A stretch of 64,000 bases of DNA from a virus, in the IMG/VR virus record IMGVR_UViG_3300003177_000005, positions 55,560 through 119,559 of that record, one strand, 5' to 3'. Position numbers and translations under genes: made by a program. The number at the start of each line of letters is the position of its first letter. Position 1 is the first letter of the stretch. The notes under the pieces are model-generated. The model did no database searches and had not been told where the DNA came from. It saw only the letters and a program-made list of their open reading frames with translations. Positions 3,016 through 63,584 of this stretch are shown in pieces.

Positions 3016-4158
3016 ATGAAAAAAAAAGAAAATACAGGTAAATTTAATAATGATACAGTAGGTATCATTGATGATGGTTCATTAGTAACCTTTAAAGAGT
3101 ATAAAGAGACAAAGTCTAATACATTTGCTGGTTTACCAAGTATCACTATTGATTTAGAACATCGTAGTTATATCTTCTATCTTAAAGATGCTAACATTCA
3201 TTGCTTTAACGATGATAAATACGAAGACCGATTAAATCAATTATCTTTGTCACCAACATTCTTTTATACACTTAGAGCTAATCCTACAAAGAAGGATATA
3301 ATTTATTTCGATGGTTTAGGGTTTAAAAATATTTTGTTAGAACCAGTAGAAGAACCTATTATTAACAATCTAGACCTTGATGAAGTTTTAGAGGGTATCC
3401 TTCTTAGTGGGGATAAAATAAATGTTGACTTTATACTAGGACTAAACCTGCATCTTACGGATAATCCGAATGAGAGAATAAAGTTTATAAATTTTAAAGT
3501 AAAACCAGGTTTCGAGGTTGAAGCTGAGATAGTTATAAAAGATGTTTCTTATATGGAAAAAGGTACTTTAGTATATACTAAAGAACTTAGAATTACTTTT
3601 ACTAGAGATAAATATGACAATATAAATACTTGTTTGGGTGAACCCCTTAAAATGATGAAAAATGTTAATACTAATATGGACAATAGTATTGGGCGTCAAA
3701 TTGGTAGTCAAAGTATAAATAGCAACACTCAGATTTTGGTTGACAGAGAAGAGGTTGCAACTCAAAACTCTAAAGAAGAAGTATCAGACCTAATTACAGA
3801 TGAAAATATTACTGAAATTAAAGAAGATTTTAAAGAAAAAGATGAAATGTATCTACCTAGTTCTGATGCTGTTCCCAAAGAAGAATTAAACCCTATACTT
3901 ATACCAGATATACCAAAGGGAGAAGTTAAAATAAATAATGGTGGGTCTGACCCTTTATTAAGTCAAGAGTGGGGTAATGAAGGTGCAAGAGAACCGATAG
4001 TTGAACCTAATGAAATTAAGGATTTCGAACAAATGGATAATGTAAACCCTAACACTATGAAAAAAAATATGATGACCTTTAAGGGTCTTGAAGAAAAAGA
4101 TCTTATTAAAGAAGGTGGGAAAGAGATTTCTTACATAATTAAAAAGTTTTTAAAATGA
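3016..4158 (+). CDS. Acidic hypothetical protein, 380 aa
   Basis: The product has an N-terminal folded-looking region (about residues 1-215, beta-rich) and a C-terminal half that is acidic and low in complexity (about 225-360, many Glu, Asn and Pro). The last residues are basic. Such a tail suggests a flexible linker or interaction region. It continues the operon begun at 1205. No family recognised. Confidence 0.7.
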   Translation: MKKKENTGKFNNDTVGIIDDGSLVTFKEYKETKSNTFAGLPSITIDLEHRSYIFYLKDANIHCFNDDKYEDRLNQLSLSPTFFYTLRANPTKKDIIYFDGLGFKNILLEPVEEPIINNLDLDEVLEGILLSGDKINVDFILGLNLHLTDNPNERIKFINFKVKPGFEVEAEIVIKDVSYMEKGTLVYTKELRITFTRDKYDNINTCLGEPLKMMKNVNTNMDNSIGRQIGSQSINSNTQILVDREEVATQNSKEEVSDLITDENITEIKEDFKEKDEMYLPSSDAVPKEELNPILIPDIPKGEVKINNGGSDPLLSQEWGNEGAREPIVEPNEIKDFEQMDNVNPNTMKKNMMTFKGLEEKDLIKEGGKEISYIIKKFLK

Positions 4159-5601: not shown

Positions 5602-5861
5602 ATGAACAGTTTTATACAAAACTATTTACCAAGGATTTTGTCTTTGGTAATATTTTAAGTATTACTAAAAATAAGTCAAAACAAGAACAAGAGAGAATAC
5701 ATATTTTTATCGTTTCTCTAATTGCTAACTTTTTCTTTACAGCATTACTAAAAGATTATCTACCAGTTCCAGAAAATACAACCGAGTTTGTTTTATTGTC
5801 TGTTATGTGTATAATTGGTTTTGTTACTATTATGGTAACATATGAAAGTAAAATTAAATAA
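5602..5861 (+). pseudogene. Frameshifted membrane protein gene
   Basis: ATG 5602 gives only an 18-residue frame. Another frame, open from before 5600, encodes a charged N-terminus (ITKNKSKQEQERI) and two hydrophobic segments (IFIVSLIANFFFTALL and FVLLSVMCIIGFVTIMV) up to a TAA at 5859-5861. A shift within about 5610-5635 would join them into a protein of about 85 residues with two membrane spans. It follows the 5034 gene as the membrane gene 9650 follows 9043. Confidence 0.4.
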
Positions 5862-6048
5862 ATGGTTACGGAAGTAGGAGCATTTGAGAAGAAGATTGAT
5901 TATGTATAAATTAAAAGAAAATATTAATATTTGATACTAGGAGCCGTATGGTTTCCTAGTAACATCTTTTACTATTAAAGTAACCTTTATTTTTTTATTT
6001 TCGACCTTTATTATTGATAAGATAAAAAAAAAGGGGGGGGGGTTACTA
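5862..6048 (+). other. Degenerate membrane-segment frame ending in a G10 tract
   Basis: The frame of the 6049 gene is open backwards to 5941 and encodes a hydrophobic stretch (VTSFTIKVTFIFLFSTFIID) followed by a poly-Lys/Gly segment encoded by A9 (6024-6032) and G10 (6033-6042). Further upstream, ATG 5902 is in the same frame but separated by TGA and TAG stops. The block looks like the remnant, or switchable N-terminus, of a membrane-anchored version of the next gene. Confidence 0.4.
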
Positions 6049-6384
6049 ATGAATGAGTTTAATAACAAAGGTATATCGGAGTTAAAGGATTTAATTTATG
6101 TTAATACAAGAAAGTTTAAAGATGACAAGAAAATACTTTTTGATGTATTAGTCAAAATACAAATGGAGATACTATTAAAGTTAGCCCCATCAAAGGATAT
6201 CGTAATAGAAGATTTAAATAATATTTTAAAAGGTGATTTTGCTGTTTATGATGATCCATTTACAAATATAAATGAAATTATTCTAGAAAATATTTATGAT
6301 AATAATTTAGATTATAATAAAGAACTACAGCGTTTAGCTGTTTTTTCATTTTTAAAATGTCAAAACGAAGGTATACTTGATTAA
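6049..6384 (+). CDS. Hypothetical protein, 111 aa, preceded by a poly-G tract
   Basis: The 111-residue acidic, helical protein starts at an ATG six bases after a G10 run that may itself act as the ribosome-binding site. The frame is continuous through the tract into an upstream membrane segment, so a membrane-linked longer product is possible. It ends in a hairpin overlapping the stop codon. No family recognised. Confidence 0.65.
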   Translation: MNEFNNKGISELKDLIYVNTRKFKDDKKILFDVLVKIQMEILLKLAPSKDIVIEDLNNILKGDFAVYDDPFTNINEIILENIYDNNLDYNKELQRLAVFSFLKCQNEGILD

Positions 6385-10453: not shown

Positions 10454-10882
10454 ATGAAAAAAAGGTTAAACAAAATAAAGATATCAGGTAAGCAATATGG
10501 CTTATCTGATAAAAAGGTTTTAAGTTGGTTAGAGTACAAAAAAGGTAAAATGAATGAACCATTTAGAGTTTTAGATACATATTATTTCTCAGATGGTGGA
10601 ATTTTAGTAACTGATATAATGTATGATTCAGTTCATACTATAAAAGAGTCGGATATGCTACAAGAGTATAAAACAAATGTAGTTGAACTAAACAAAAGAG
10701 ATGACGAACTCTTTATTGTTGAGGAAGATAAGAACTTTCCTAAACTTTTTAATATTAATAGTAAAGTTGTTAAAGAAAAAATTGAGAAGGAAATTACTAC
10801 CGGTATGTTAGAGTTAAAAAATGGTAGGTTTATAGAAAAAAAAACATCTTACTCCATTAATAACATTCTTAAAAACATATGA
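10454..10882 (+). CDS. Hypothetical protein, 5' piece of a frameshifted gene
   Basis: ATG 10454 follows AAAGGATTCAAAA. The 142 residues end at ATA TGA, while the +1 frame after CTTAAAAACATATGAG stays open (TYENLNNQTLTDFAKWLDK) straight into the 11007-11816 reading frame. The two are very probably one gene of about 450 residues, interrupted at an A5 run. Soluble, no family recognised. Confidence 0.55.
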   Translation: MKKRLNKIKISGKQYGLSDKKVLSWLEYKKGKMNEPFRVLDTYYFSDGGILVTDIMYDSVHTIKESDMLQEYKTNVVELNKRDDELFIVEEDKNFPKLFNINSKVVKEKIEKEITTGMLELKNGRFIEKKTSYSINNILKNI

Positions 10883-11006
10883 GAATCTTAATAACCAAAC
10901 ATTAACAGATTTCGCCAAATGGCTTGATAAGTTTTTTGATTTAGAGTACTTATATATCAATAGTAATAATATTGGTAGTATTTACATCATAACTGATTTT
11001 GAACAA

Positions 11007-11816
11007 GTGAAAAAACATGGTATTGAGTTACTTGAATTTGGTTTAGACAATTTACCAAAACGATTTTGCAAAGTTGGGTTTACAACTATAAGAAGTCATA
11101 AAGATAATAGTGAATGTCTTATAAACGGATATATGTTATATAGTGTTGATTTGGACGAGGTGTTAGTTTCTTATACCGAAAATAAATATATTATTTATCA
11201 AAGTGATGAACCAAATTATAGCCATACGGAATATATAAACCCTCATTTTAGGCACATGGATACTACTTCAGTTTTTAGTGATAGGAGTTTAGAGAAGATA
11301 ATAAATTTCTTTAATCTAAGTAACTTAGACATTATTTATGTGGACAATTATCCATATCTAATTGTTACTAGTAATATACTAAAACCAATAGGTACTGTTC
11401 TAAGTACTCTATATAGAGTCTTAAATAAAGGTGAATACGAACTTAGAAGTAAGGTGGAGGATAAGTTTAAAACATCCATTACCTTGAACTATAGTGTTGA
11501 GGATAAAGTCGCAGAAAAGATACTTAATGCGATACACGATATAAAAGTAAGAAAACTTCGTTCATATCTATTATCAAGAGATAATTCACAGTATAAACTA
11601 AATCATATTAATAACTGGGCAAAAAGACATAGTGATACAACATCTAATTTTAACTATGAAAAAGGTTTTGTAGATTTAATAATAAAAGATGATTTTGGAC
11701 TTATAGAAGAAGATACATATTTGCCAGAGGTTTACTTACATATTACTAAAGAGTCTACATATTATACCTTTAGTAAAGAAAAGTTTAAGAATAAAGATTT
11801 TGATATTAAATTATAA
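11007..11816 (+). CDS. Hypothetical protein, 3' piece of a frameshifted gene
   Basis: A GTG at 11007 opens this 269-codon frame, but there is no ribosome-binding site and the frame is open backwards to about 10873, where it meets the end of the 10454 gene. The protein is alpha/beta and soluble. It should be read as the C-terminal two-thirds of the upstream gene. Confidence 0.55.
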   Translation: MKKHGIELLEFGLDNLPKRFCKVGFTTIRSHKDNSECLINGYMLYSVDLDEVLVSYTENKYIIYQSDEPNYSHTEYINPHFRHMDTTSVFSDRSLEKIINFFNLSNLDIIYVDNYPYLIVTSNILKPIGTVLSTLYRVLNKGEYELRSKVEDKFKTSITLNYSVEDKVAEKILNAIHDIKVRKLRSYLLSRDNSQYKLNHINNWAKRHSDTTSNFNYEKGFVDLIIKDDFGLIEEDTYLPEVYLHITKESTYYTFSKEKFKNKDFDIKL

Positions 11817-15338: not shown

Positions 15339-16112
15339 ATGGCATTAACAGCTATGTATATGTTACATAGAGTTTTACACAAAGATATCGATACCAGGAT
15401 ACCTGGCGGTGCAACTAATATAAAGATCAAGTACCATGGTAAGTGGTACAAACAAAAAGAGTTAAAAAAACTGTGGTCTATCAAAGGTAACAAAATTACC
15501 CATAGACCTAATTACAAGGTTATTAAACACCCTAAGAACATAAGACGGTTACATGTTCTAAAAGGGCTAGCAAAGATATATAAATATGGTGACAGAATAG
15601 ATAATGTATATGAAATTACTAAATTTATATTTAAAAAGGTAGACACATATAGTAAGTCTCACCACTATTTTAATAGGGGTAGACATAAACTATATAAAGT
15701 TTACAAAGAATTGGAGTACTTAAGAAGTCACTCCAAAAGGTATTCCTCGTCTTATAATAACTGGACAACTCAAATAATCAGGATTGGTCAGAGTTTCCAA
15801 CAAAATTATAATATGAGTATAAAAGAGTACGAACATTCTCGTGCAAATAGTAGGGACCGTCACTACTATACACACCAAGATATACGAGCTGTATCAAAAA
15901 GAGTGGCTCGTATAAAGAGAATGTTCAGAATAAAAGGTGACTGGTATTATGCTAAAACATATAATAAATACCATCACCATAGTGAGTATATAGCTCGTAT
16001 AGATAGAGCTAAAAAATATACTCATAAACGACACCATAAAAAACTAAACAAGATGTTATTATACCATCAGCGTAAACAGATGGAATACGCTGTTGCGTTG
16101 CGTATGGTATAG
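15339..16112 (+). CDS. Very basic His/Tyr/Lys-rich protein, 257 aa
   Basis: ATG 15339 follows AAAGGAGGAGTT, the strongest ribosome-binding site in the region. The product is extremely basic, with very many Lys, Arg, His and Tyr spread along it and few acidic residues. Clusters such as KYHHHSEY and KRHHKKLNK recur. It has no membrane segment and is probably helical. Such composition suggests nucleic-acid binding, possibly as a host-takeover or DNA-coating protein, but I recognise no family. It is a single-gene unit with its own promoter and terminator, which implies strong independent expression. Confidence 0.75.
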   Translation: MALTAMYMLHRVLHKDIDTRIPGGATNIKIKYHGKWYKQKELKKLWSIKGNKITHRPNYKVIKHPKNIRRLHVLKGLAKIYKYGDRIDNVYEITKFIFKKVDTYSKSHHYFNRGRHKLYKVYKELEYLRSHSKRYSSSYNNWTTQIIRIGQSFQQNYNMSIKEYEHSRANSRDRHYYTHQDIRAVSKRVARIKRMFRIKGDWYYAKTYNKYHHHSEYIARIDRAKKYTHKRHHKKLNKMLLYHQRKQMEYAVALRMV

Positions 16113-16755: not shown

Positions 16756-16800
16756 ATTTTATTTATATTATTTTTTTCTATTTAGTGATGGGCATCGTTT
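16756..16800 (+). promoter_or_regulatory. Early promoter with partial palindrome (copy 8), heading the RNA locus
   Basis: TTTATTTATATTATTTTTTT precedes TAGTGATGGGCATCGTTT (from 16783), which keeps the left arm and part of the right. No coding frame with a ribosome-binding site follows for 850 bases, so this promoter appears to serve a structured RNA. Confidence 0.5.
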
Positions 16801-17184
16801 CCAGTCAGAATGATCAAGTAGGTATAATTTAGTTATATGCGAACCACATTCCCATACAGGAAAACTGCCCTAGTTTGTCTCGTAAGTTCTAGTAGTATAT
16901 ACAATATCTTTGCCTTTATGGTGTAAGTGCGATAATATATATGGGGGATGTTGGTAACGCAACATCTTGGTTCTAGAGGCAACTTACCTCGATAGTGTCC
17001 TAAGCTGAGCATCCTATAGGTCTTCGGATCTATAGGGTGTGAGGTGGATGGGTCAGAGGAAAGTTGTAGACGAATGCACCAGTAACTGCTGGTGAAATCC
17101 AATCAGAAGTCGTGGGGGAAGTGGGGGTACGATCAAAGTGGCCCAAAGGGCATCCGCTTAGACAGCAAGATATCGCTAGATATC
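16800..17184 (+). ncRNA. Large structured non-coding RNA of unknown class
   Basis: Roughly 385 bases with clearly higher GC than the flanks and no protein-coding character. Visible stems: GATGTTG/CAACATC (16947-16966); a 12-base stem closed by a TTCG tetraloop (17011-17038); CACCAG/CTGGTG (17077-17094); GCCC-AAA-GGGC (17141-17151); TCGT/ACGA around a purine-rich loop (17110-17132); GATATC-GCTA-GATATC at the end (17169-17184); and a possible long-range pairing of GTAAGTT near 16882 with AACTTAC near 16981. It is preceded by promoter copy 8. I do not see the hallmark sequences of tmRNA, group I introns or RNase P RNA. Large ornate phage RNAs (GOLLD or ROOL type) are an alternative I cannot test. 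Ends are approximate. Confidence 0.65.
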
Positions 17185-17579
17185 AATCTATGTTATACTT
17201 ATATATAAGACATATATAATACTTAAACTAAAGAGATCTAATAATTTATATATAAACAAATAATAAACATATAAGATCTTAATAATATATAAAAGATAAA
17301 TATAATAAAGGTCTATCAGTAATAATCCTAAAGTTATGTCATAGACAGATATAGAGATCTTAATAATAAATAATAAATATAAAGATCTAAATAATTATAA
17401 CATATATACATAAATAATAAAATATATAATAAACTAATATATAGATAAGAAAATATCTTAATAATATAAAAGAGATCTATAATCATAGTTAATAAGACAT
17501 AAAGGTAGTAAATTTAGTTAATACTACTATAAGATATACTATGACATAGATAAGTAAAAGAAAGTTAAAATAGAGTATA
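17185..17579 (+). repeat. AT-rich non-coding block with iterated AGATCT sequences
   Basis: No credible gene lies here. AGATCT occurs at 17234, 17274, 17355, 17383 and 17473 (ATATCT at 17453), mostly followed by (T)AATAAT, in an otherwise almost pure A/T stretch. The repeats resemble iterons or protein-binding sites and could form an origin, the tail of the preceding RNA, or a leader of the next operon. Confidence 0.5.
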
Positions 17580-17620
17580 TTTTATCTATATATTATTTAG
17601 TTAGTAATGTCATATTACTA
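17580..17620 (+). promoter_or_regulatory. Early promoter with palindrome (copy 9)
   Basis: TTTTATCTATATATTATTTA is followed by TAGTAATGTCATATTACTA (17602-17620), a 7-bp perfect inverted repeat whose arms differ in one base from the usual TAGTGA. It heads the operon from 17650 to 22942. Confidence 0.65.
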
Positions 17621-17649
17621 AAGTTAAAATTTAAATAAGGAGTTAAGTT

Positions 17650-18021
17650 ATGAAGGTTGAGTTAGTTAAGTTATCAGAGAGTATCAGTTCTGTTACTCCA
17701 TTTGAGTTCTTTATGTTAAAAGAGAAAATAACAGATAGTTCTCTTTATATTTTTAAAGAAGAGAACCTTGTCGATATCAAAAGTAAGAGGGGTAAAGTAT
17801 TAAATACTTCTTTTGTAGATATTAATTTAGGTATCAATGTAAATATTAGTTATTACGTTATGAAACAAGATGATATCTTTATTGTATATGTGATTGATTT
17901 TTTGGTTGAAAAGGTTTTAAGTGATGAGGTTTTTGTTAATAAGTTAGAGCTCGTTGAAAAAACATTAGTCAAATTTAAAGATGTCTATAATAAAGAAGAG
18001 TTTAAATTATTAGGGGTTTAA
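17650..18021 (+). CDS. Hypothetical protein, 123 aa
   Basis: ATG 17650 follows AAGGAGTTAAGTT. The product is soluble with mixed alpha/beta character. After its TAA (18019-18021) the same frame stays open to 18369, so this could be the first part of a longer protein interrupted by one nonsense codon. No family recognised. Confidence 0.65.
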   Translation: MKVELVKLSESISSVTPFEFFMLKEKITDSSLYIFKEENLVDIKSKRGKVLNTSFVDINLGINVNISYYVMKQDDIFIVYVIDFLVEKVLSDEVFVNKLELVEKTLVKFKDVYNKEEFKLLGV

Positions 18022-29339: not shown

Positions 29340-32306
29340 ATGATTATCAATGTTACAAAAATAGATGGACGAAAAGAACCACTAAATATAGAGAAGATAA
29401 GAAAATATACTAAAGGGTATGTACCAGGTAATGATGAAAATATGGTAGCTGAATTAGAATCTGATGTTCAATTACATTTTAAAGATGGGATGAGCACAGC
29501 TGATATACATGATGCCCTTATACGAGAGTGTACACTTAAAACTGATGTTGGTAAATTAGAGTGGGATAAATTTGCTAAAAACTTATTTGTTTCCAATTTT
29601 AAATATAGACTAAAAAAAGATAAAAATATATTTGATCTTAAATCTTATATAAGAGAAAATAAAGATAGACTTAATGATCGTATACTTTCATATACTGAAG
29701 ACGAACTAAATCTTTTAAAAGAAGAGATTAATGAGGATAATGACTTTAAAGAATTTACTTATAATGGTATCGTTACATTACTTAATTCTTGGGCAAATAA
29801 AAAAGGCGATAGTATTATAGAAACTCCTCAATATCTTTATATGGGTTTAGCTATGTTTTTGGCTAGTAATGAAGAAAGAGATAGTTGGGTTTATTGGTCT
29901 AAGAAGTTCTATTATGTTTTAACTAATCATTATGCATTAATGGGTACACCAACAATGAGTAAATCTAGATCAAAAAGACCACAGTTATCTTCTTGTTATG
30001 TTGGTGCAACTCCAGATAGTATCGAAGGTATAATGGATGCTAATAAGACTATCTCTATACTATCAAAGTTTGGTGGTGGTATCGGTTGGGATTTTTCTCC
30101 AATACGAAGTGTCGCATCTGAGATAGATGGTTATAAAGGTGTAGCTGGTGGTTCAATTCCATTCCTAAAAATAACTAATGATGTAACATTAGCTGTAGAC
30201 CAATTAGGTTGTGTGGTTAAGGATAGTTATGTAAAAGTTATAGATGATATTAATGAAATTAATGAAAGAATTATTCCTATTTATAAACTAAAAAAGGGTG
30301 ATTTGATTAAATCTTACAATCATACTTTAAATAAAGTTGAATATCAAACAGTATTAGAAACATATGACTTAACAGTAGAGATTAAGGACCAGGTTTTAAT
30401 AGTATTCGAAAATGGCGTAAAATATTTAACATCTGCTTGGCACCCTGTTCCAAAATTGATAGATGGTGAATATAAATATGTTCGAGCTGATAGTATAAAA
30501 GAAAATGATATAACTGTTGGTGATAATGGTGAAGAGTTAAAAATTGTTAGTGTTAAACACGGTGAAGAAACCGGTAGTAAAACAAATGTATTTTTCGATA
30601 TTACAGTTAAGGATAATAATAACTATTTCTGCGCATCGTTTAATTCGGATAATAATATTTTCGGACTTATTCACAATACTAGACCAGGGGCCTTAGCACC
30701 ATATCAAAATACTTGTTCATTAGAAATTATTGATTTCCTAGATTTAAGAAAAAATTCTGGTGAAGAGCGTAGAAGAGCACACGATTTATTTTTAGCAGTT
30801 ATTTTAGAAGATAGATTTATGGAAGCTGTGGAAAATGATGAAGAGTGGTTGTTAGTAGACCAATATGAAGTTCCTGAATTAATACACGCACAATCTGGTG
30901 AAGTGTTTAAAAGTAAATATGAAGAAACTTTACAAAGATTTAGAAACAATGAGTTAAAATTAGGTAAATTAGTTAGTGCTAAAGATTTATGGAAAAAGAT
31001 AATAAGAAGTTATTATGAAACTGGTTATCCATTCTTATTCTTTAAGACAACAGCTAATGAAAAACATATGGGAACTGGAACTATCCGTAGTAGTAACCTT
31101 TGCACAGAGATTTTTCAAGCTACAGCTCCTGCCGAATATGATATGGTTGTTTATATGGAGACAGGAAATAAGATAGAATCTATCTATATACCTAGAACAT
31201 CATTAATCAAAATAGGTGTAAGAAATAAAGATGGTAAGATTAAATATAGATCAGGAACAATTAAGGAGATAACAGCTGCAACAGACTCAGTATATGTTAC
31301 ACTTAAAAATCCAAATGATAAAGAAGATGAATGGACAGGTCAAGAGTTTATTTTAGAGAATATTCTAAATGCAGAGTTAGTTAAAGATAAAGTTTCCGAA
31401 GAGTTAGCAGTTTGTAACTTATCATCTATTAACTTAGCTAAGATAAATACAAAAGAAGCTTTTGAAGAAATTATACCTATTGTTGTTCGTATGTTAGATA
31501 ATGTTATTGATCTGAACTTCTATCCAGTATTAGCAGCGGCTCTAACTAATAAACGAACTAGAGCTATTGGCTTGGGTGTAGCTGGTGAAAATGAACTAAT
31601 AGCAGGTAAGGGTATACATTATGGTTCAGAAGAGCATAAAGAGTTCGCTAATGAGCTTTATGAGATGTTTGCATATTACACAATAAAAGCTAGTGTTGAC
31701 TTAGCTAAAGAAAAAGGTAAGGCACCTGCTTTTGATGATTCTAAATGGGCTAACTTTGATCATAAAGAGTATAGTACATTAGCATCAAAGATTCCTGAAG
31801 ATGAATTAGATATACCTAAACCAAAATACTTTATGGACTGGGTAGGTTTAGAAAAAGATATTAGAGAGAATGGTATGAGAAATATTTATCTTATGGCTAT
31901 TGCTCCTACTAGTACTATTGCTAGTGTACTTGGAACAACAAGCAGTATCTCACCAATAATTAATAAGTTAACATTTGAATCTAATTCTAAAGATCATCTA
32001 TTGGCTAAGTACCCATCTAACTTATCAGCTGAAACTTGGAATTTCTATACAAATGGATTTAAGATAGATCAAATCGAAGCTATAAAGGTTAACGCTATTC
32101 GTCAGCGATGGATTGACCAAGGTATATCTTATAATGTTAGAGTATTACAAGGAGATGTAACTGGAACAGACTTACATAATATCTATATGACAGCTTGGAA
32201 ATATGGTATGAAATCAACATACTATTTAAATAGTATACCAAAAGAAAAAGAAGAGGAGAAACAAAAATATAAAGAAGATCAAATAACTTGTGTAAACTGT
32301 GAATAA
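29340..32306 (+). CDS. nrdA: Class I ribonucleoside-diphosphate reductase, large subunit (with intein)
   Basis: The 988-residue precursor reduces ribonucleoside diphosphates for phage DNA synthesis, with a partner radical subunit not in this window. An ATP cone occupies about 1-90. The active-site set is present: SSCYVG (Cys219), SNLCTEIF with the N-L-C-T-E pattern, AVCNLSSINL, and a C-terminal radical-relay and redox tail (MKSTYYLNS, ending CVNCE). Residues 291-446 are an intein, so the mature enzyme is about 832 residues, joined as DQLG-TRPGALAPY. About 75 extra residues lie between NLCTEIF and AVCNLSS. From memory, Helicobacter/Campylobacter NrdA have a comparable insert and similar flanking motifs. 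Start follows AAAAAGGGAAAAGA. Confidence 0.93.
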   Translation: MIINVTKIDGRKEPLNIEKIRKYTKGYVPGNDENMVAELESDVQLHFKDGMSTADIHDALIRECTLKTDVGKLEWDKFAKNLFVSNFKYRLKKDKNIFDLKSYIRENKDRLNDRILSYTEDELNLLKEEINEDNDFKEFTYNGIVTLLNSWANKKGDSIIETPQYLYMGLAMFLASNEERDSWVYWSKKFYYVLTNHYALMGTPTMSKSRSKRPQLSSCYVGATPDSIEGIMDANKTISILSKFGGGIGWDFSPIRSVASEIDGYKGVAGGSIPFLKITNDVTLAVDQLGCVVKDSYVKVIDDINEINERIIPIYKLKKGDLIKSYNHTLNKVEYQTVLETYDLTVEIKDQVLIVFENGVKYLTSAWHPVPKLIDGEYKYVRADSIKENDITVGDNGEELKIVSVKHGEETGSKTNVFFDITVKDNNNYFCASFNSDNNIFGLIHNTRPGALAPYQNTCSLEIIDFLDLRKNSGEERRRAHDLFLAVILEDRFMEAVENDEEWLLVDQYEVPELIHAQSGEVFKSKYEETLQRFRNNELKLGKLVSAKDLWKKIIRSYYETGYPFLFFKTTANEKHMGTGTIRSSNLCTEIFQATAPAEYDMVVYMETGNKIESIYIPRTSLIKIGVRNKDGKIKYRSGTIKEITAATDSVYVTLKNPNDKEDEWTGQEFILENILNAELVKDKVSEELAVCNLSSINLAKINTKEAFEEIIPIVVRMLDNVIDLNFYPVLAAALTNKRTRAIGLGVAGENELIAGKGIHYGSEEHKEFANELYEMFAYYTIKASVDLAKEKGKAPAFDDSKWANFDHKEYSTLASKIPEDELDIPKPKYFMDWVGLEKDIRENGMRNIYLMAIAPTSTIASVLGTTSSISPIINKLTFESNSKDHLLAKYPSNLSAETWNFYTNGFKIDQIEAIKVNAIRQRWIDQGISYNVRVLQGDVTGTDLHNIYMTAWKYGMKSTYYLNSIPKEKEEEKQKYKEDQITCVNCE
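30210..30677 (+). other. Mini-intein within NrdA (156 aa, no endonuclease domain)
   Basis: The insert starts at Cys291 (CVVKDSYVKV, block A) and ends IHN followed by Thr447, the canonical penultimate His, terminal Asn and +1 Thr nucleophile. TSAWHPV near 364-370 is block B with the TxxH pattern, and FFDITVKDNNNYF near 418-430 is block F. At 156 residues there is no room for a LAGLIDADG or HNH domain. The splice junction lies in a highly conserved active-site segment of NrdA, as is usual for inteins. Confidence 0.88.
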
Positions 32307-32346
32307 TACTAGGCAGGAAAACCTAGTATTATTCTAGGTGTTTTTT
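32305..32346 (+). terminator. Terminator after nrdA
   Basis: AATACTAGG and CCTAGTATT pair around CAGGAAAA, just past the stop codon, followed shortly by GTTTTTTAAA. Confidence 0.7.
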
Positions 32347-32381
32347 AAATATATTTCTTTGAGATAAAAGAAAGGGTTAAC

Positions 32382-33422
32382 ATGTATACTTTTTTAGATA
32401 ATTATATGCGTTTTGGTAAAAAGGGTTTTAATAATATTGCTTTTCCTAGACGCATTCATAAAGCTAACATAGTACGCCTTAAGGATTATTATAATAGATA
32501 TCCTAATAAGGTAAATAACAGTAATATATTTGCTAGGATGTTAGATTTTGCACCTATAAATATAGACGATTCAATTTATGATATATTAGATCAAATACCA
32601 AGAGCTACATCTTTAATTAAACACACATTCCCAGTAATAACTAACTTTAAAAAAGATATTGTCTGGCAAAGAAAATTTATAGGTGGTTTTGCACAGGTTT
32701 TAACAAAAGACTATAAAAACAATTTCACATATAAAATAACAGAAGAATTAATCACTAATGATTTTAGAAAAATTGAACCATTAAAAGTAATTTATCATAA
32801 TGGTTACAATAACTCATATAGACACCCTTCTAATTTTAGAAATACAGAGACAATATTATATTTAGATATTGAGCTTATGTTAGTTCAGTATAAATTATGG
32901 AGAGATAATCAACTTTTAAAGAATGGTGTGTATACATCAGACTATTATGTTTATAATGTTTTATTAGCTGATATCATACCAGAGTTTATAGATTTAACAG
33001 TTTTAAATTGCATCTTAAATAATAATGATAAACTTAAGTTTACAAAACAACCAGCTTATATAGAAGATATTTCGAGTCATATTTTAAAATATGTTAAAGA
33101 GTATAAAAAGAAGAAATATTATTTATCGAATTATGAAGGTGGCGCAGTGGCTCAAATGCCAGTAATACATAATGAGGTTATGTCAGATATTTTTAAACTT
33201 GATACTGATATAAGTTTTCATAATTATATACTTTACATTTATGCAATATTTCCAGTTATAGAATTTGTTTTGAGAGAAGATAAGAATTTTATAAATAAAG
33301 GTTTATTTAGTTCAGAATTTCTTTATAATGATATGTTTACAAATACAAGCGAATTAAAAGATATCGGAACTAAAGAATTTTTAGACAAATATAATAAAGT
33401 ATTAGAAAAAGTAGGAGAATAA
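32382..33422 (+). CDS. Hypothetical virion-region protein, 346 aa
   Basis: ATG 32382 follows AAAGAAAGGGTTAAC. The product is aromatic-rich (many Tyr, Phe, Asn) and soluble. No signature is visible. Being first in the plus-strand virion module and two bases from the next gene, it is probably a structural or head-tail joining protein. This is inferred from context only. Confidence 0.65.
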   Translation: MYTFLDNYMRFGKKGFNNIAFPRRIHKANIVRLKDYYNRYPNKVNNSNIFARMLDFAPINIDDSIYDILDQIPRATSLIKHTFPVITNFKKDIVWQRKFIGGFAQVLTKDYKNNFTYKITEELITNDFRKIEPLKVIYHNGYNNSYRHPSNFRNTETILYLDIELMLVQYKLWRDNQLLKNGVYTSDYYVYNVLLADIIPEFIDLTVLNCILNNNDKLKFTKQPAYIEDISSHILKYVKEYKKKKYYLSNYEGGAVAQMPVIHNEVMSDIFKLDTDISFHNYILYIYAIFPVIEFVLREDKNFINKGLFSSEFLYNDMFTNTSELKDIGTKEFLDKYNKVLEKVGE

Positions 33423-33423
33423 T

Positions 33424-34182
33424 ATGAGTTTTTTAAATTATGCAGTTAGACGAGTAAAGGGCATGGGTATACCCCCAAGGCTTTTGTCATTGATTTTACA
33501 AAATACAGATGTAGCTAAGAGACAGTCTTTAGATTATTTAATAAGGACAAAGCTTTTAGAACCACATATTATGAAAGATTTACTAAGTTCCTCTTCTCAA
33601 AATTTAGAATTAGATTTAAGTCAAGTTAATTTACGATATGCTGAAAATGGTGTCTATATAGAAGTTCCAGATAGTGTTTTAAAAAATAGAGACATATTAA
33701 GTTTTGTCTCATTAACAGTTTCTAAAACAGGTAATATAATGTCCAGTTCTGGATCTTTAACAGAGATTGTAACTGAAAGACTTTCTGTTTTGAGTGGAAG
33801 TGGTGTACCATTAGAATATGTTTTCTTAGAACGATTAACCGATAATATATTTTTTTTAAGTAATTTAAATATTGTTGGTAATGGAACTTTAAGATTCGAA
33901 GTAACTAATGATAAACAACTAAAGGATTTAAATCCTACATATCACCATAAGTTTGCTAAGTTAATAAATTCAGGTGTTAAAGCCTTACTGTATAATAGTT
34001 TTATTATGGACCTAAATGAAGGTATAATTTTTAATGGTAGAGATGCTGATTATATAGAGAATATAGTTAGTAAATGGGAAGGTGAAGATGAAACATATTT
34101 CGAAGAGCTCGGAAAAGCCAGAAAGATATTCTTAATGAATAATCAACAGTTTATGGACGACTTAATTAATACATCTATCTGA
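33424..34182 (+). CDS. Hypothetical virion-region protein, 252 aa
   Basis: ATG 33424 follows GTAGGAGAATA. The product begins with a basic amphipathic helix (FLNYAVRRVKGMGIPPRLL) and continues as an acidic alpha/beta domain. It is translationally linked to the preceding gene and ends in a terminator, so the two form one unit. A connector or neck role is possible, but I do not recognise the family. Confidence 0.65.
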   Translation: MSFLNYAVRRVKGMGIPPRLLSLILQNTDVAKRQSLDYLIRTKLLEPHIMKDLLSSSSQNLELDLSQVNLRYAENGVYIEVPDSVLKNRDILSFVSLTVSKTGNIMSSSGSLTEIVTERLSVLSGSGVPLEYVFLERLTDNIFFLSNLNIVGNGTLRFEVTNDKQLKDLNPTYHHKFAKLINSGVKALLYNSFIMDLNEGIIFNGRDADYIENIVSKWEGEDETYFEELGKARKIFLMNNQQFMDDLINTSI

Positions 34183-37715: not shown

Positions 37716-38312
37716 ATGGCTGTAATAACAACAGGAAATAATATAGACCCTTTTTCAACTATCTTGGCATCAGCTGATCAACATCAAGCATATGCTAATG
37801 TTATTGCTGAACGATATAAAGGGTTACAAAATAGTATTGGTACAATTAGTACAAGTGTTATGAATACTATTAGAGATAGTTTAGAATATGTTAATAGTTC
37901 AGAATTTATAAATACTGTTAAACGAGTAACTAGACTAGTAGGTACTCAAGTTGATGATAATATTATACATGTTGTTAATAATGTTAACTTGAACAATTTA
38001 ACAACTAGAACTAGAAATACTATGATGGAAGAACCAACATTAATGAGATTATATCAAAATGGTATTTATGATGAAGAGTTAATGAAAGGATATGTTGATC
38101 CATGCCCAAGTATTAATAAACTCGAGGATAGACCAAGCTATCAAGCTATAGTTAATGGTTTTAGTTATAGTACAGGTGAAGAAACAACACCAAGAACTAT
38201 ATATAATTCTACAGAAGAATTTGAAGAGTATGGAATAATTGATAAGTTAACAATAAGTTTAAATTGGGACAATGTCTCCAAACTTATCTCTGATGGTGTA
38301 GATGTTATTTAA
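37716..38312 (+). CDS. Hypothetical virion-region protein, 198 aa
   Basis: ATG 37716 follows AAAGGAGTTAAA, ten bases after the beta' gene. The product is helical in its first half and rich in Asn, Thr and Ser. No membrane segment. Placement suggests a structural or assembly protein. No family recognised. Confidence 0.65.
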   Translation: MAVITTGNNIDPFSTILASADQHQAYANVIAERYKGLQNSIGTISTSVMNTIRDSLEYVNSSEFINTVKRVTRLVGTQVDDNIIHVVNNVNLNNLTTRTRNTMMEEPTLMRLYQNGIYDEELMKGYVDPCPSINKLEDRPSYQAIVNGFSYSTGEETTPRTIYNSTEEFEEYGIIDKLTISLNWDNVSKLISDGVDVI

Positions 38313-50088: not shown

Positions 50089-52888
50089 CTATCATTTCAT
50101 AATCATATGTTATTATACTATTTTTTATTTTTTTAGGTATATACATTCGATTTCGGTCTAGATATTTAAATGTAACAAAATTATCACCTATGTTAGAAAT
50201 CTTTATACTTTTTACAGTATTATTAAATAACCCCATAATTTCATCAATCATTTCTAGCACATCTACATAACTTCTCGTTAATTTAAAATCGATTATCTTA
50301 CCAATAGAGTGGTAAATCTCTTCTGTGTTAATACTATTAACATCTACAGTAAATATTTCTACAGTAGGTTTTATCTTATTATTAACAACCTTCTCATTTT
50401 GTCCAATCTTTATTTTACAAGTTTTATAGTTCAGTAATGGTTTATAAAACATAACTGTATTATCTAACATATTCTGATTATACTCTACCAACTTATACTT
50501 TAACCAATAGTCTAGTGTTACTAATATATTTTTAGTGTTTTCATTAATTAGTAAGTCCTTACTTATCTTAAATTTATAATCAATCATAAGTATATCTAAG
50601 TATCTTATAACACCACCTATTTGGTCTATTACAGGTTTACCATCTTCTAGGATTAAATCACCAGCTTTATGTTGGTAAATCGTATCTCCATTATCATCTT
50701 TAACTAAGTCACCTCTACTATGTAATTTTATAGGTATAGCGTGTTCATCAGTTACTTCAACATCTGTTATACTAGTAAAATCATAAATATCTTTTTGATA
50801 AACTAAAGGTGCATCGTTAGTATAACGCTTATACTTATTATCTCCATAAGATATAGATAACTTATTCCATAAATATTCAAGTTTAGAACCAAACTTATAA
50901 TTAATTTCATGGTCTGTTAAGAATATATAATTACCATAAGGAGAATTATATATATCACCACTATTTAAATCGTCACCTATCGTTAATCTAGTAGTAAATA
51001 ATTTTAAAGATAACTTATCTTCTAAATTAACAAAAGTAGTTGTTAACTTCTTATCACCGTTTAAAATCTGTAGTGTATCAGTGTCATTAATAAAATGATT
51101 TGTTTTAATTTCTATTTCAAATTTACCATCTTCATTTATTTCTGCATAATAATAAATTCTTTCTGGAGTACCTTTTATTTTAATACTTACTTCTAACTTT
51201 AAATCATTTTTCATATTTTCAAATTCATCATTACCAGAAACAGTAAAACTAAATTTAAAACCATTAATTGTTTTGAGTACTTCATATTTTTCTATGTTAC
51301 CATTAACTTTTTTAATATTATAGTTTTTTCTTAAGATATTTAAATCACTTACTGTTGGTCTATCTAAATCGTATACTCTACTGTTAAATACATCATTATC
51401 GATACTTATGATGTAATAGTAAGGTGTAAAAAGAAGTCGTTGCTTATTTGTCACAGACTCTAAAATATCTTGATTATAATGCAAAAGACTGGTTCTAAGA
51501 CTTTCACTTATAGGCTCAACTAGCCCATTATCTGATTTAAATATTGTATTACTTTTAATAATTATAAACTTTTCATCATCTGAAATAAATATGTTTTTGT
51601 TATCTATACTTGGTAAATACAATTTTGTTGTATTAGACATAACTCTATTTAAAACATTGATGTCTGTACTTAAACTTATATCAGGCTCTTTAAATACAAC
51701 AAATGTTCTTTTAGTTAAACTATCTAGAATCTTCTCTAGTGCAAATCCATCGTTATATACCATTTTTTTAAGTTGTTTTTCTGTAATAGGTAAATCATTA
51801 TGGTTAGTTATTCTATGTTTAATTATCTTTTTAAAATCTTCAACACCTTTACTTATATAACCACCATCTACAACCGTTTGTGAATTTATAAAAACATTTA
51901 GATTATTACTATCCCCATAAATGTTATCATCACTAGATGCTATATTAAATTCAAAAGCTTCAGCTGTGTATGTATTCAATGGTTGGAAAATTTTACCCTT
52001 AGTTGTAAATAACTCAATCTTAAGCGTACCAGACATATTATCCATAACAGTATTTAATATTGGTGTTTTAAATCTAACCCGATTATTTAAATATTGCACG
52101 ATAATTTTATCTTTTTCAAGAGAAAACTCATCTGATAAATTCTTTTCAAGTTTTCGAAAATCATTATTAATACTATCTGAAATATAAACACTAGATGATA
52201 AATAATATTCATTTTTAAGTTCTATAACTTTATCGAACTTTTCAGATAAAATAATATCATCAATGTATTCAACTAGTTTTAATTGTTTAACTGGTAATGT
52301 AAATTTTACCCATTCAATATTATTATTATCTGTTATTACTACACTGTTAACATTTCCAATATGTTTAAAAGATATAAGTTCTTCATTATTAACCACTTCT
52401 ATAAATGGTACCCAACCATTATTGTTAACTCTTAACATTATATTCAAGTTATTAAGTATCGTATAATCCAGGTTATCTACAGTTATTTTACTCTTTTTAG
52501 GTATTGTAACTATATAAGATTCTAACTCTTCTATATACCCTCCATTGTTCTTAATACTGTTTAATTCTATATAAAAATCAAAATAACCAGTTGCAGGATA
52601 ACTAAATAAACCAACATCTTCAATACCATTCAAAAATCTAAATAGATCCTCCTCATTATTACTTAAACCAAGAACTTGATTACAAACTGTTTCAAAAGTA
52701 GAAGTCGCTGAAACTAAATTGATAATAGATTGTTCAGCTATAAGGGAATAAGGGTTACTTACATCACCTAATGTTAAATCACCTTTTAATCTTGAATCTA
52801 GTTCCTGGAAAAACCTATCTTGTGCTAGACTTGGATTATAACTCAAAACTCCAATCTCTTTAATATAGTTTTTAGTACTATCACTCAT
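50069..52888 (-). CDS. Putative large baseplate/tail structural protein
   Basis: The 939-residue protein (start at the second of two ATGs, better spaced from GAAGGATGA) begins like baseplate-J-type proteins of large phages: DSRLKGDLTLGDVSNPYSLI, a helical AEQSIINLVSATSTFE stretch, then FDFYIELNS and an IVTIPKKSKITVDNLDYTIL segment resembling the IPAGT/strand pattern. The rest is a long beta-rich, acidic sequence rich in Asn, Asp and Ile, typical of virion spikes or wedges. No enzymatic motif. It overlaps the stop of the upstream minus-strand gene, forming a two-gene unit. Confidence 0.5.
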   Translation of the reverse strand: MSDSTKNYIKEIGVLSYNPSLAQDRFFQELDSRLKGDLTLGDVSNPYSLIAEQSIINLVSATSTFETVCNQVLGLSNNEEDLFRFLNGIEDVGLFSYPATGYFDFYIELNSIKNNGGYIEELESYIVTIPKKSKITVDNLDYTILNNLNIMLRVNNNGWVPFIEVVNNEELISFKHIGNVNSVVITDNNNIEWVKFTLPVKQLKLVEYIDDIILSEKFDKVIELKNEYYLSSSVYISDSINNDFRKLEKNLSDEFSLEKDKIIVQYLNNRVRFKTPILNTVMDNMSGTLKIELFTTKGKIFQPLNTYTAEAFEFNIASSDDNIYGDSNNLNVFINSQTVVDGGYISKGVEDFKKIIKHRITNHNDLPITEKQLKKMVYNDGFALEKILDSLTKRTFVVFKEPDISLSTDINVLNRVMSNTTKLYLPSIDNKNIFISDDEKFIIIKSNTIFKSDNGLVEPISESLRTSLLHYNQDILESVTNKQRLLFTPYYYIISIDNDVFNSRVYDLDRPTVSDLNILRKNYNIKKVNGNIEKYEVLKTINGFKFSFTVSGNDEFENMKNDLKLEVSIKIKGTPERIYYYAEINEDGKFEIEIKTNHFINDTDTLQILNGDKKLTTTFVNLEDKLSLKLFTTRLTIGDDLNSGDIYNSPYGNYIFLTDHEINYKFGSKLEYLWNKLSISYGDNKYKRYTNDAPLVYQKDIYDFTSITDVEVTDEHAIPIKLHSRGDLVKDDNGDTIYQHKAGDLILEDGKPVIDQIGGVIRYLDILMIDYKFKISKDLLINENTKNILVTLDYWLKYKLVEYNQNMLDNTVMFYKPLLNYKTCKIKIGQNEKVVNNKIKPTVEIFTVDVNSINTEEIYHSIGKIIDFKLTRSYVDVLEMIDEIMGLFNNTVKSIKISNIGDNFVTFKYLDRNRMYIPKKIKNSIITYDYEMIVTDISQ

Positions 52889-62258: not shown

Positions 62259-63584
62259 ATGGCAAATTTAAGATATAAGGTAGAGGGACTAGATGAAACT
62301 CTAGTCTACCCTCTCGTCTATGCTATAACTGAAGATTTAAAAGAGATAATGCAAATGTCCCCAGATGCTAATATCAATACTACAGACTTTTTAGAAAACA
62401 GTACTTGGACAGTTGGAGATACATCGGATTTAAAGATTAAAGGTGAGAAAAGATTTCATATTAATGTTTCATTTACAGATGAATCTATGAATAATATAAC
62501 ACCCTTATCTGGTACTAATAATAACAACAGACCTATAGTTTATGATAAAGAAGAAGGTCTTTATTTTAAACCGTTAACTATAACTAATAAATTAACATTA
62601 AACTTTAAGGTATATGATAAAGATGGTACTGATGTTAGTAATATAGTTAATATGTTTGATTTATTAAAAGGTGCAGGTAGGGATAAGTTTTTACATCAGA
62701 TTAAGACTGATTATAGCATTCCTAATTTTTTACTTTATCTCTTAGAAAATATTTATACCCTAAAGGCAGAATATATTAAACCAGAGATAAACTCTTTTAA
62801 AGAGTACCTTGAAACCATATCAGATAAAGAAACTTATATAGCTGAAAGAGTAACCGATAATGCTAGTTTAAATATTTTAGCTCGTATGGAGCAAAGAGAT
62901 ATAGTTGGTTATTTTGGTGATAACATAACTGAAAAAGAAAAAGAACAAGATGAAAAGACTAAAAATATTGATTGGTCATATGTTGTTTATTACAGTAAAC
63001 CTATCTTTATAGATGTCAGTTATCCTATTATGGTTTGTAATAACTTTGTCGAAACAGAGTTTATAGAAAATATAGGTGTGTCTTATAAAGAAGTTTTAGA
63101 ATATTATAAGAAGGTACTATATAATCAAAATTATCTTTTATCAAAACGAGCTTATAAATTAGACGATCTTCCAATTCCAACATCCAACTTAGGTTATCTA
63201 ACAATACCTAGTGTTGATGATAAGAAATTGCTAATTAGTTCTGTTAATGTTAATCCTATACTTAGAGTATTAGTTGCTATTAATAAGGAAGATAAACGCT
63301 CTCTCTTTAATTTAACAGAATTGATGGAAGTAGAATTAGAACCAGATATTATTGAGTATTTAAGAAGGAATTATACTAATCTAACAAGTTATTCTAAATC
63401 ATTATTTTATTTAACAATTTATGAAAATAATCGAAGACTTCCTGATGATACAATAATGGTTGATAGCGAGTTAAATGTTATAGCTACTCGGGATTTGGAT
63501 ATGTGTAAAACCTATAGGGTATTCTTTAATATTATAAGTAATATTGAGGTATTGGATTATGATGTTCAAGCAGATTTATTATAG
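62259..63584 (+). CDS. Virion structural protein, 441 aa (3' end probably frameshifted)
   Basis: The ATG directly follows the TAG of the previous gene. The protein is beta-rich and acidic with no membrane segment, typical of head-tail or tail structural components. It ends YDVQADLL, but another frame continues (RFIIESLITIFNPLESANVD, then LKIETVNLKIFPGVVKFQE) to a TAA at 63712-63714, needing two one-base shifts, one near 63570 and one at TTAAAATAG. The real protein is probably about 485 residues. Confidence 0.6.
   Translation: MANLRYKVEGLDETLVYPLVYAITEDLKEIMQMSPDANINTTDFLENSTWTVGDTSDLKIKGEKRFHINVSFTDESMNNITPLSGTNNNNRPIVYDKEEGLYFKPLTITNKLTLNFKVYDKDGTDVSNIVNMFDLLKGAGRDKFLHQIKTDYSIPNFLLYLLENIYTLKAEYIKPEINSFKEYLETISDKETYIAERVTDNASLNILARMEQRDIVGYFGDNITEKEKEQDEKTKNIDWSYVVYYSKPIFIDVSYPIMVCNNFVETEFIENIGVSYKEVLEYYKKVLYNQNYLLSKRAYKLDDLPIPTSNLGYLTIPSVDDKKLLISSVNVNPILRVLVAINKEDKRSLFNLTELMEVELEPDIIEYLRRNYTNLTSYSKSLFYLTIYENNRRLPDDTIMVDSELNVIATRDLDMCKTYRVFFNIISNIEVLDYDVQADLL

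Follow-up and report, generated by a model that had tools for sequence, protein, structure and literature searches.

Several described systems stand close to the element reported here. Among large phage RNAs, GOLLD and ROOL assemble into cages and are often encoded close to tRNA islands (PMC12286853), and the noncoding RNAs recovered from phiKZ by Grad-seq are pieces of mRNA untranslated regions, about 100 and 180 nucleotides long and with two stem-loops (PMC8545117). Among RNA-dependent starts of replication, ColE1 RNA II is a folded noncoding RNA upstream of the place of strand opening, where it forms a persistent hybrid (PMC5043065); in mitochondria, the G-rich tract of the CSBII transcript forms an RNA-DNA quadruplex which stabilises the priming R-loop (PMC6317783); and initiation of replication from R-loops has been described for T4 (PMC5333043). 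Here we analyse a stretch of 64,000 nucleotides (the window), positions 55560-119559 of the 119,559-bp IMG/VR virus record IMGVR_UViG_3300003177_000005 (labelled G000), in which a GC-rich island at 16783-17184 is followed by AT-rich repeats. Sequence analysis supports a structured noncoding RNA at 16784-17184, and we consider it highly probable from sequence comparison that this RNA is a stand-alone member, divergent and enlarged, of a new family that occurs in jumbo phages of the PhuZ-encoding, phiKZ-like kind.

The structured RNA and its relatives

The island contains the 200 bases of highest GC content in the whole record (rank 1 of 119.6 kb; z = 5.2); in 200-base windows its GC fraction is 0.44-0.495, and the record as a whole averages 0.281. 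A previous sequence-only reading had reported this stretch, and its boundaries prove good to within a few bases. That reading had also seen no credible protein in the island, in agreement with our check of open reading frames (ORFs), the largest of which encode 38 amino acids on the plus strand and 89 amino acids, from a TTG start, on the minus strand; neither is credible. The stems it had named are present as well: at 17010-17039 a stem of 13 bp capped by a UUCG loop, and at 17141-17151 GCCC-AAA-GGGC. On the plus strand the minimum free energy (MFE) reaches -125.7 kcal/mol, which corresponds to z = -2.76 when compared with 100 dinucleotide shuffles, one of which folds equally well; on the minus strand z is -1.37. 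The fold is clearly better than that of shuffles on the plus strand only.

Searches with Rfam 15 gave no match at the gathering score in the window, the rest of the record or the scanned stretches of relatives. Beyond that score there are just weak matches, far below the cut-off; in the island the single match at E <= 10 is a 24-nucleotide chance match to another family, on the minus strand. ARAGORN found no tRNA or tmRNA on the 119.6-kb record, which is possibly a fragment. These results agree with the earlier statement that signature sequences of tmRNA, RNase P RNA and group I introns were not found in the island. A circularly permuted RNase P RNA, considered on account of GAGGAAAG at 17057 (CR-I-like), was dropped, as this sequence is not kept in relatives and has no Rfam match. 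With blastn, the island yields only short chance matches among 50,697 phages and 69 related IMG/VR records; an exact 20-mer of the island had no match in IMG/VR, and searches with a neighbouring protein and with the window's RNA polymerase protein gave no matches.

Judged by its proteins, the record belongs to a divergent jumbo phage of the phiKZ-like, PhuZ-encoding kind. Its tubulin is of the PhuZ type, and in the window lie genes for split multi-subunit RNA polymerase proteins and for a DNA polymerase, about 21-31% identical to those of phiKZ-like jumbo phages. Its nearest relatives, by profile searches with DNA polymerase and terminase, are uncultured IMG/VR phages. We found six copies of the RNA, one of them weak (E), in five other PhuZ-encoding, phiKZ-like phages (Table 1). 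Members A-D were found by reading the noncoding GC-rich islands of related phages; a gapped pattern made from them and run over all of IMG/VR returned A-D, member H and six GC-rich contigs without the shared plan, and a later IMG/VR pattern scan returned D and H again and nothing else. No homologue of B or H was found by blastn among the 50,697 phage records, and bacterial and archaeal genomes gave 82 pattern matches, about the chance estimate, none of which is family-like on inspection.

The members share one plan. A 5' hairpin, CUAG, hairpin P2, GACC or GUCC, the first strand of helix P3, a long P4 and a small P5 come in this order. Then follow GAA, the second strand of P3, which continues into a G-tract, and, after 4-6 linker nucleotides, a second G-tract; the relatives additionally end in a G-rich tail. 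A covariation check on homologues from related phages had been proposed with the sequence-only reading; its outcome favours a structured RNA, in that relatives were found and the junction helix P3 shows compensatory changes, reading CCUCG/CGGGG in A, CCGUG/CACGG in B, CCAG/CUGG in C, CCCAU/GUGGG in D, CCACU/AGUGG in H and CCAC/GUGG in the window. Pairs 3 and 4 of P3 each occur as four pair types across these six sequences, and all 24 of 24 cells pair when the strands are in register, a number that falls to 17 or fewer when they are slid.

We assessed the place of the window copy in this family by its 3' anchor, using a scoring matrix built from A, B, C, D and H and not from the window copy. 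At 17112 the window copy attains 30.0 bits, equal to B and D; the runner-up site in the record has 17.5 bits, and no dinucleotide shuffle of the island, out of 3000, scored as high as the window copy. Its P3 strands fit the family (CCAC is identical in H, and AACCAC stands where relatives have GACC/GUCC), and its double G-tract reads GGGGGAAGUGGGGG. P1 resembles both the AGUGA..UCACU at the start of the phage's other transcripts and the AGUG-CGAU-CACU of member B, and the enlarged P4 domain has as its counterpart in relatives a single hairpin of 16-26 bp.

Several observations speak against this identification and need to be weighed. The anchor was defined after the sequences had been seen, and the window RNA, when constrained to the family core, is about 15 kcal/mol worse than in its free fold, in whose MFE structure P3 is not formed. 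A small covariance model of P5 and the anchor (R1) ranks the window copy as its top match in the window, but at E = 4.7, because P5 and the anchor are 14 bases further apart than the family spacing allows for. No clear member was found in G051, G052, G055, G056 and G063, several of which are fragments. The window copy might, given the E value from R1, the late choice of the anchor and the chance-level blastn matches, be a structured RNA unrelated to the others, its double G-tract having arisen by convergence; we regard this as unlikely, since no composition-matched shuffle attains its anchor score, its P3 strands are common to H, and the DNA downstream is of the same kind as in D and E.

Other GC-rich elements were encountered in these genomes. 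A second noncoding island in the phage of member D (G057 1500-1720) ends in GGTGGGTGGCGGG and may be a second, degenerate copy of this gene. G056 (IMGVR_UViG_3300026488_000012) carries three copies, at 3116-3235, 62620-62745 and 142670-142790, of a different GC-rich hairpin of about 110 nucleotides with a conserved GTCAGAAAGTCTCCTCGACGAAGGAGA-type core. Group-I-intron-like islands with GGATAGTCGTT / GACTATATC occur in G044 (860-1070, 178600-179500), G051 (37740-37860, 45150-45350), G052 (10840-11200, 138760-138960) and G000 (51098-51361); those of G044, G051 and G052 were set aside as distinct from the RNA family, and the scanned G000 and G044 stretches with such islands gave no Rfam match at the gathering score.

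Promoter, AT-rich repeats and flanking genes

The sequence-only reading had placed the RNA under an early promoter, which is plausible from the DNA upstream. TATATTATT stands 11 nucleotides before AGTGA(T) (window 16764-16789), and the pattern TATATTATT-N3..12-AGTGA occurs three times in the window against 0.08 expected. The element is thus present, yet this copy of it is imperfect, because its spacing is 11 nucleotides, against about 5 in the clear copies, CCATATATTATTWAWATAGTGAMTGACATCACT, at record positions 15620, 16393, 44768, 47367 and 70120. From the AGTGAT that follows, we would place the transcript start near 16784. At three sites (record 44768, 47367 and 70120; window 14561 onward), the repeated promoter is followed by a structured 5' leader (AGTGAMTGACATCACTATAG...) ahead of different genes, and two of these leader copies also have GTCTTATGGTGGATTCCATRCACCTAAGAC before the start codon.

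Downstream, the RNA adjoins AT-rich DNA with direct repeats, a feature that the sequence-only reading did not mention. GATCTWAATAAT occurs exactly at 17275, 17356 and 17384, and with one mismatch at 17454. The lowest GC of any 200 bp just downstream falls, within the respective record, at percentile 0.006 for the window copy, 0.04 for C (within a gene), 0.17 for D and 0.045 for E. In this DNA, direct 11-mer pairs number 11 after the window copy against 1.35 expected (none of 200 shuffles has as many), 10 against 1.07 after D and 5 against 0.48 after E; three control gaps of the record contain no such repeats. The AT-rich DNA next to the RNA is the most repeat-rich noncoding stretch in G000 and G057, and is tied for that place in G058. 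An order of promoter, folded RNA and adjacent AT-rich unwinding DNA, as an RNA-primed origin would have it, gives a mixed picture across the members: it fits the window copy, D and E, fits C in part and does not fit A and B. A further GC-rich noncoding element, with CCCCAATGAAAwGGTCATTGGTCC, is common to G057 (51981-52090) and G058 (32877-32980) and also adjoins very AT-rich DNA.

The direct repeats within AT-rich DNA, and the AT-rich stretches that lie beside hairpins elsewhere in these phages, would suit a site acting at the level of DNA, with repeats serving partition, packaging or initiator binding and the GC-rich part forming a DNA or terminator structure. We think this improbable: the long-distance compensatory changes in P3 and the strand-specific G-tracts point to RNA, as does the better fold of the plus strand.

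The genes that flank the RNA vary. Members B and C adjoin a DNA polymerase gene and D adjoins PhuZ; A and B are followed by genes on the opposite strand; and the genes downstream of the members are unrelated. In three phages the RNA and its AT-rich partner thus stay together although the flanks differ (unknown genes, PhuZ, terminase). A role as cis-regulatory leader of the gene that follows, here 17650-18021, would fit the common orientation of RNA and gene in the window and the position of D upstream of PhuZ. This is very improbable, as the nearest start codon downstream is about 470 nucleotides away and the downstream genes have nothing in common; and with opposite-strand genes after A and B, the RNA is not a leader in general.

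Two genes of this phage have unusual reading frames. The large subunit of ribonucleotide reductase (window 29340-32306) has an interruption of about 150 residues that reads like an intein (CVVKDSYVKV...GLIHN), and the terminase large subunit (record 31383-33442) is in two overlapping frames, which may reflect a frameshift, an assembly error or an intervening sequence.

Table 1. Features of the window locus and positions of the related RNAs (members A-E and H)
Feature	Position	Strand	Basis or remark
TATATTATT, promoter element repeated in the phage, here imperfect	16764..16772	+	
Structured RNA	16784..17184	+	GC peak, fold z-score, no ORF, homologues; 5' end predicted, 3' end uncertain
P1, 5' hairpin AGUGAU-GGGC-AUCGUU	16784..16799	+	Read from sequence
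P2, hairpin GUAUAA/UUAUAU	16822..16838	+	MFE fold; relatives have a hairpin at the same place
AACCAC, conserved GA(A)CC and P3 5' strand (CCAC 16844-16847)	16842..16847	+	
Enlarged P4 domain, including long UUCG hairpin 17010-17039	16872..17076	+	Fold
P5, hairpin CACCAG-UAACUG-CUGGUG	17077..17094	+	Formed by all six members compared
GAA...GU-GGGGG-AAGU-GGGGG, P3 3' strand (GUGG 17112-17115) and double G-tract	17106..17127	+	
AT-rich DNA with direct repeats	17185..17640		GC percentile, 11-mer pair excess
Members A, B	G002 5840-6055; 45441-45645		
Member C	G044 124495-124700		
Member D	G057 17450-17665		
Member E (weaker)	G058 70118-69885	-	
Member H	locus L248		Gapped pattern from A-D

A candidate replication origin and a trans-acting RNA

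In four of the five genomes examined, the strongest G-quadruplex site belongs to the RNA. These are G000, G002 (where its two copies take ranks 1 and 2), G057 and G058, in which the record's highest G4Hunter value falls within the RNA and on its strand; in G044 the value of the RNA ties for the largest. When quadruplexes are allowed for in folding, B and E gain up to about 15 kcal/mol. The strongest G4Hunter site of a further record, G063, lies at 143540-143640 in a noncoding gap beside its most AT-rich 200 bp (GC 0.11), and is a possible analogue that lacks the other parts of the plan.

Our preferred explanation, which we put forward tentatively, is that the RNA and the AT-rich repeats after it may constitute one unit, a transcription-activated origin of replication. 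We favour an origin because a promoter, a folded RNA with G-tracts and AT-rich repeats together resemble the RNA-dependent origins of ColE1, CSBII and T4. A phage RNA polymerase would start at about 16784, and the transcript would fold so as to leave two G-tracts near the end of its structured part. These would hold the RNA as an R-loop, either on the C-rich template or with the displaced G-rich strand. With the R-loop in place the AT-rich repeats next to it would open more readily, and there an initiator or polymerase could load or the processed RNA could prime synthesis. A more specific version, of which we are more doubtful, is an origin module in which the double G-tract of a folded early RNA would hold an RNA-DNA quadruplex R-loop at the AT-rich array and so start replication.

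An origin of this kind needs to be viewed cautiously, as several results count against it. No switch in GC skew is seen where the RNA lies. The two copies carried by one phage, A and B, lack AT-rich repeats (downstream GC percentiles 3.4 and 5.1), C has no excess of repeats, and AT-rich stretches beside hairpins are not confined to this RNA in these genomes. The window copy gains nothing in quadruplex-aware folding; therefore its G-tracts would act between molecules or with DNA.

The main rival, which we consider nearly as probable as the origin, is an early, stable RNA acting in trans as a scaffold or decoy, with the AT-rich DNA incidental. Its three-way-junction core would present the G-tracts, within or between molecules, for binding of a host or phage protein or for multimerisation of the RNAs; GOLLD, ROOL and OLE are RNAs that bind proteins or join into multimers. 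Such a role would accord with a conserved core and variable periphery, with a stand-alone gene in varied contexts, including the two copies in one phage that lack the repeats, and with the quadruplex gain in B and E. A trans-acting RNA would have no need, however, of the AT-rich repeats that follow it in three phages. In the form of a CsrA/RsmA sponge this rival was rejected, as GGA is not enriched (6 against 7.8 expected in the window copy).

If the origin is correct, the RNA family gives a handle on where replication starts in these phages; if the RNA acts in trans, it gives one on early RNA in the takeover of the cell. The double-G-tract motif allows a search for relatives in cultivable phages.

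Comparison with known systems

The sequence-only reading had suggested a member of the GOLLD or ROOL kind or else a new class. GOLLD/ROOL membership finds no backing in Rfam at the gathering score or in the tRNA search of the record, and the RNA, at about 400 nucleotides, is about half as long as GOLLD, many examples of which exceed 800; the likeness is confined to being a large structured phage noncoding RNA of unknown function. The second suggestion is better put as a new RNA family of phages that are phiKZ-like and encode PhuZ. Its place is best seen among structured phage noncoding RNAs in the broad sense and, as far as Rfam tells, apart from GOLLD and ROOL.

In relation to RNA-dependent origins, the window RNA may work like ColE1 RNA II, whereas ColE1 is without initiator repeats. 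With CSBII it has a G-rich transcript tract in common; organism and polymerase differ, and no long folded core is described for CSBII (PMC6317783). The Grad-seq RNAs are likewise noncoding RNAs of a phiKZ-type phage. Besides tRNAs, the only noncoding RNAs described for phiKZ in the literature consulted are fragments of mRNAs (PMC8545117), from which the RNA described here differs in being stand-alone and conserved.
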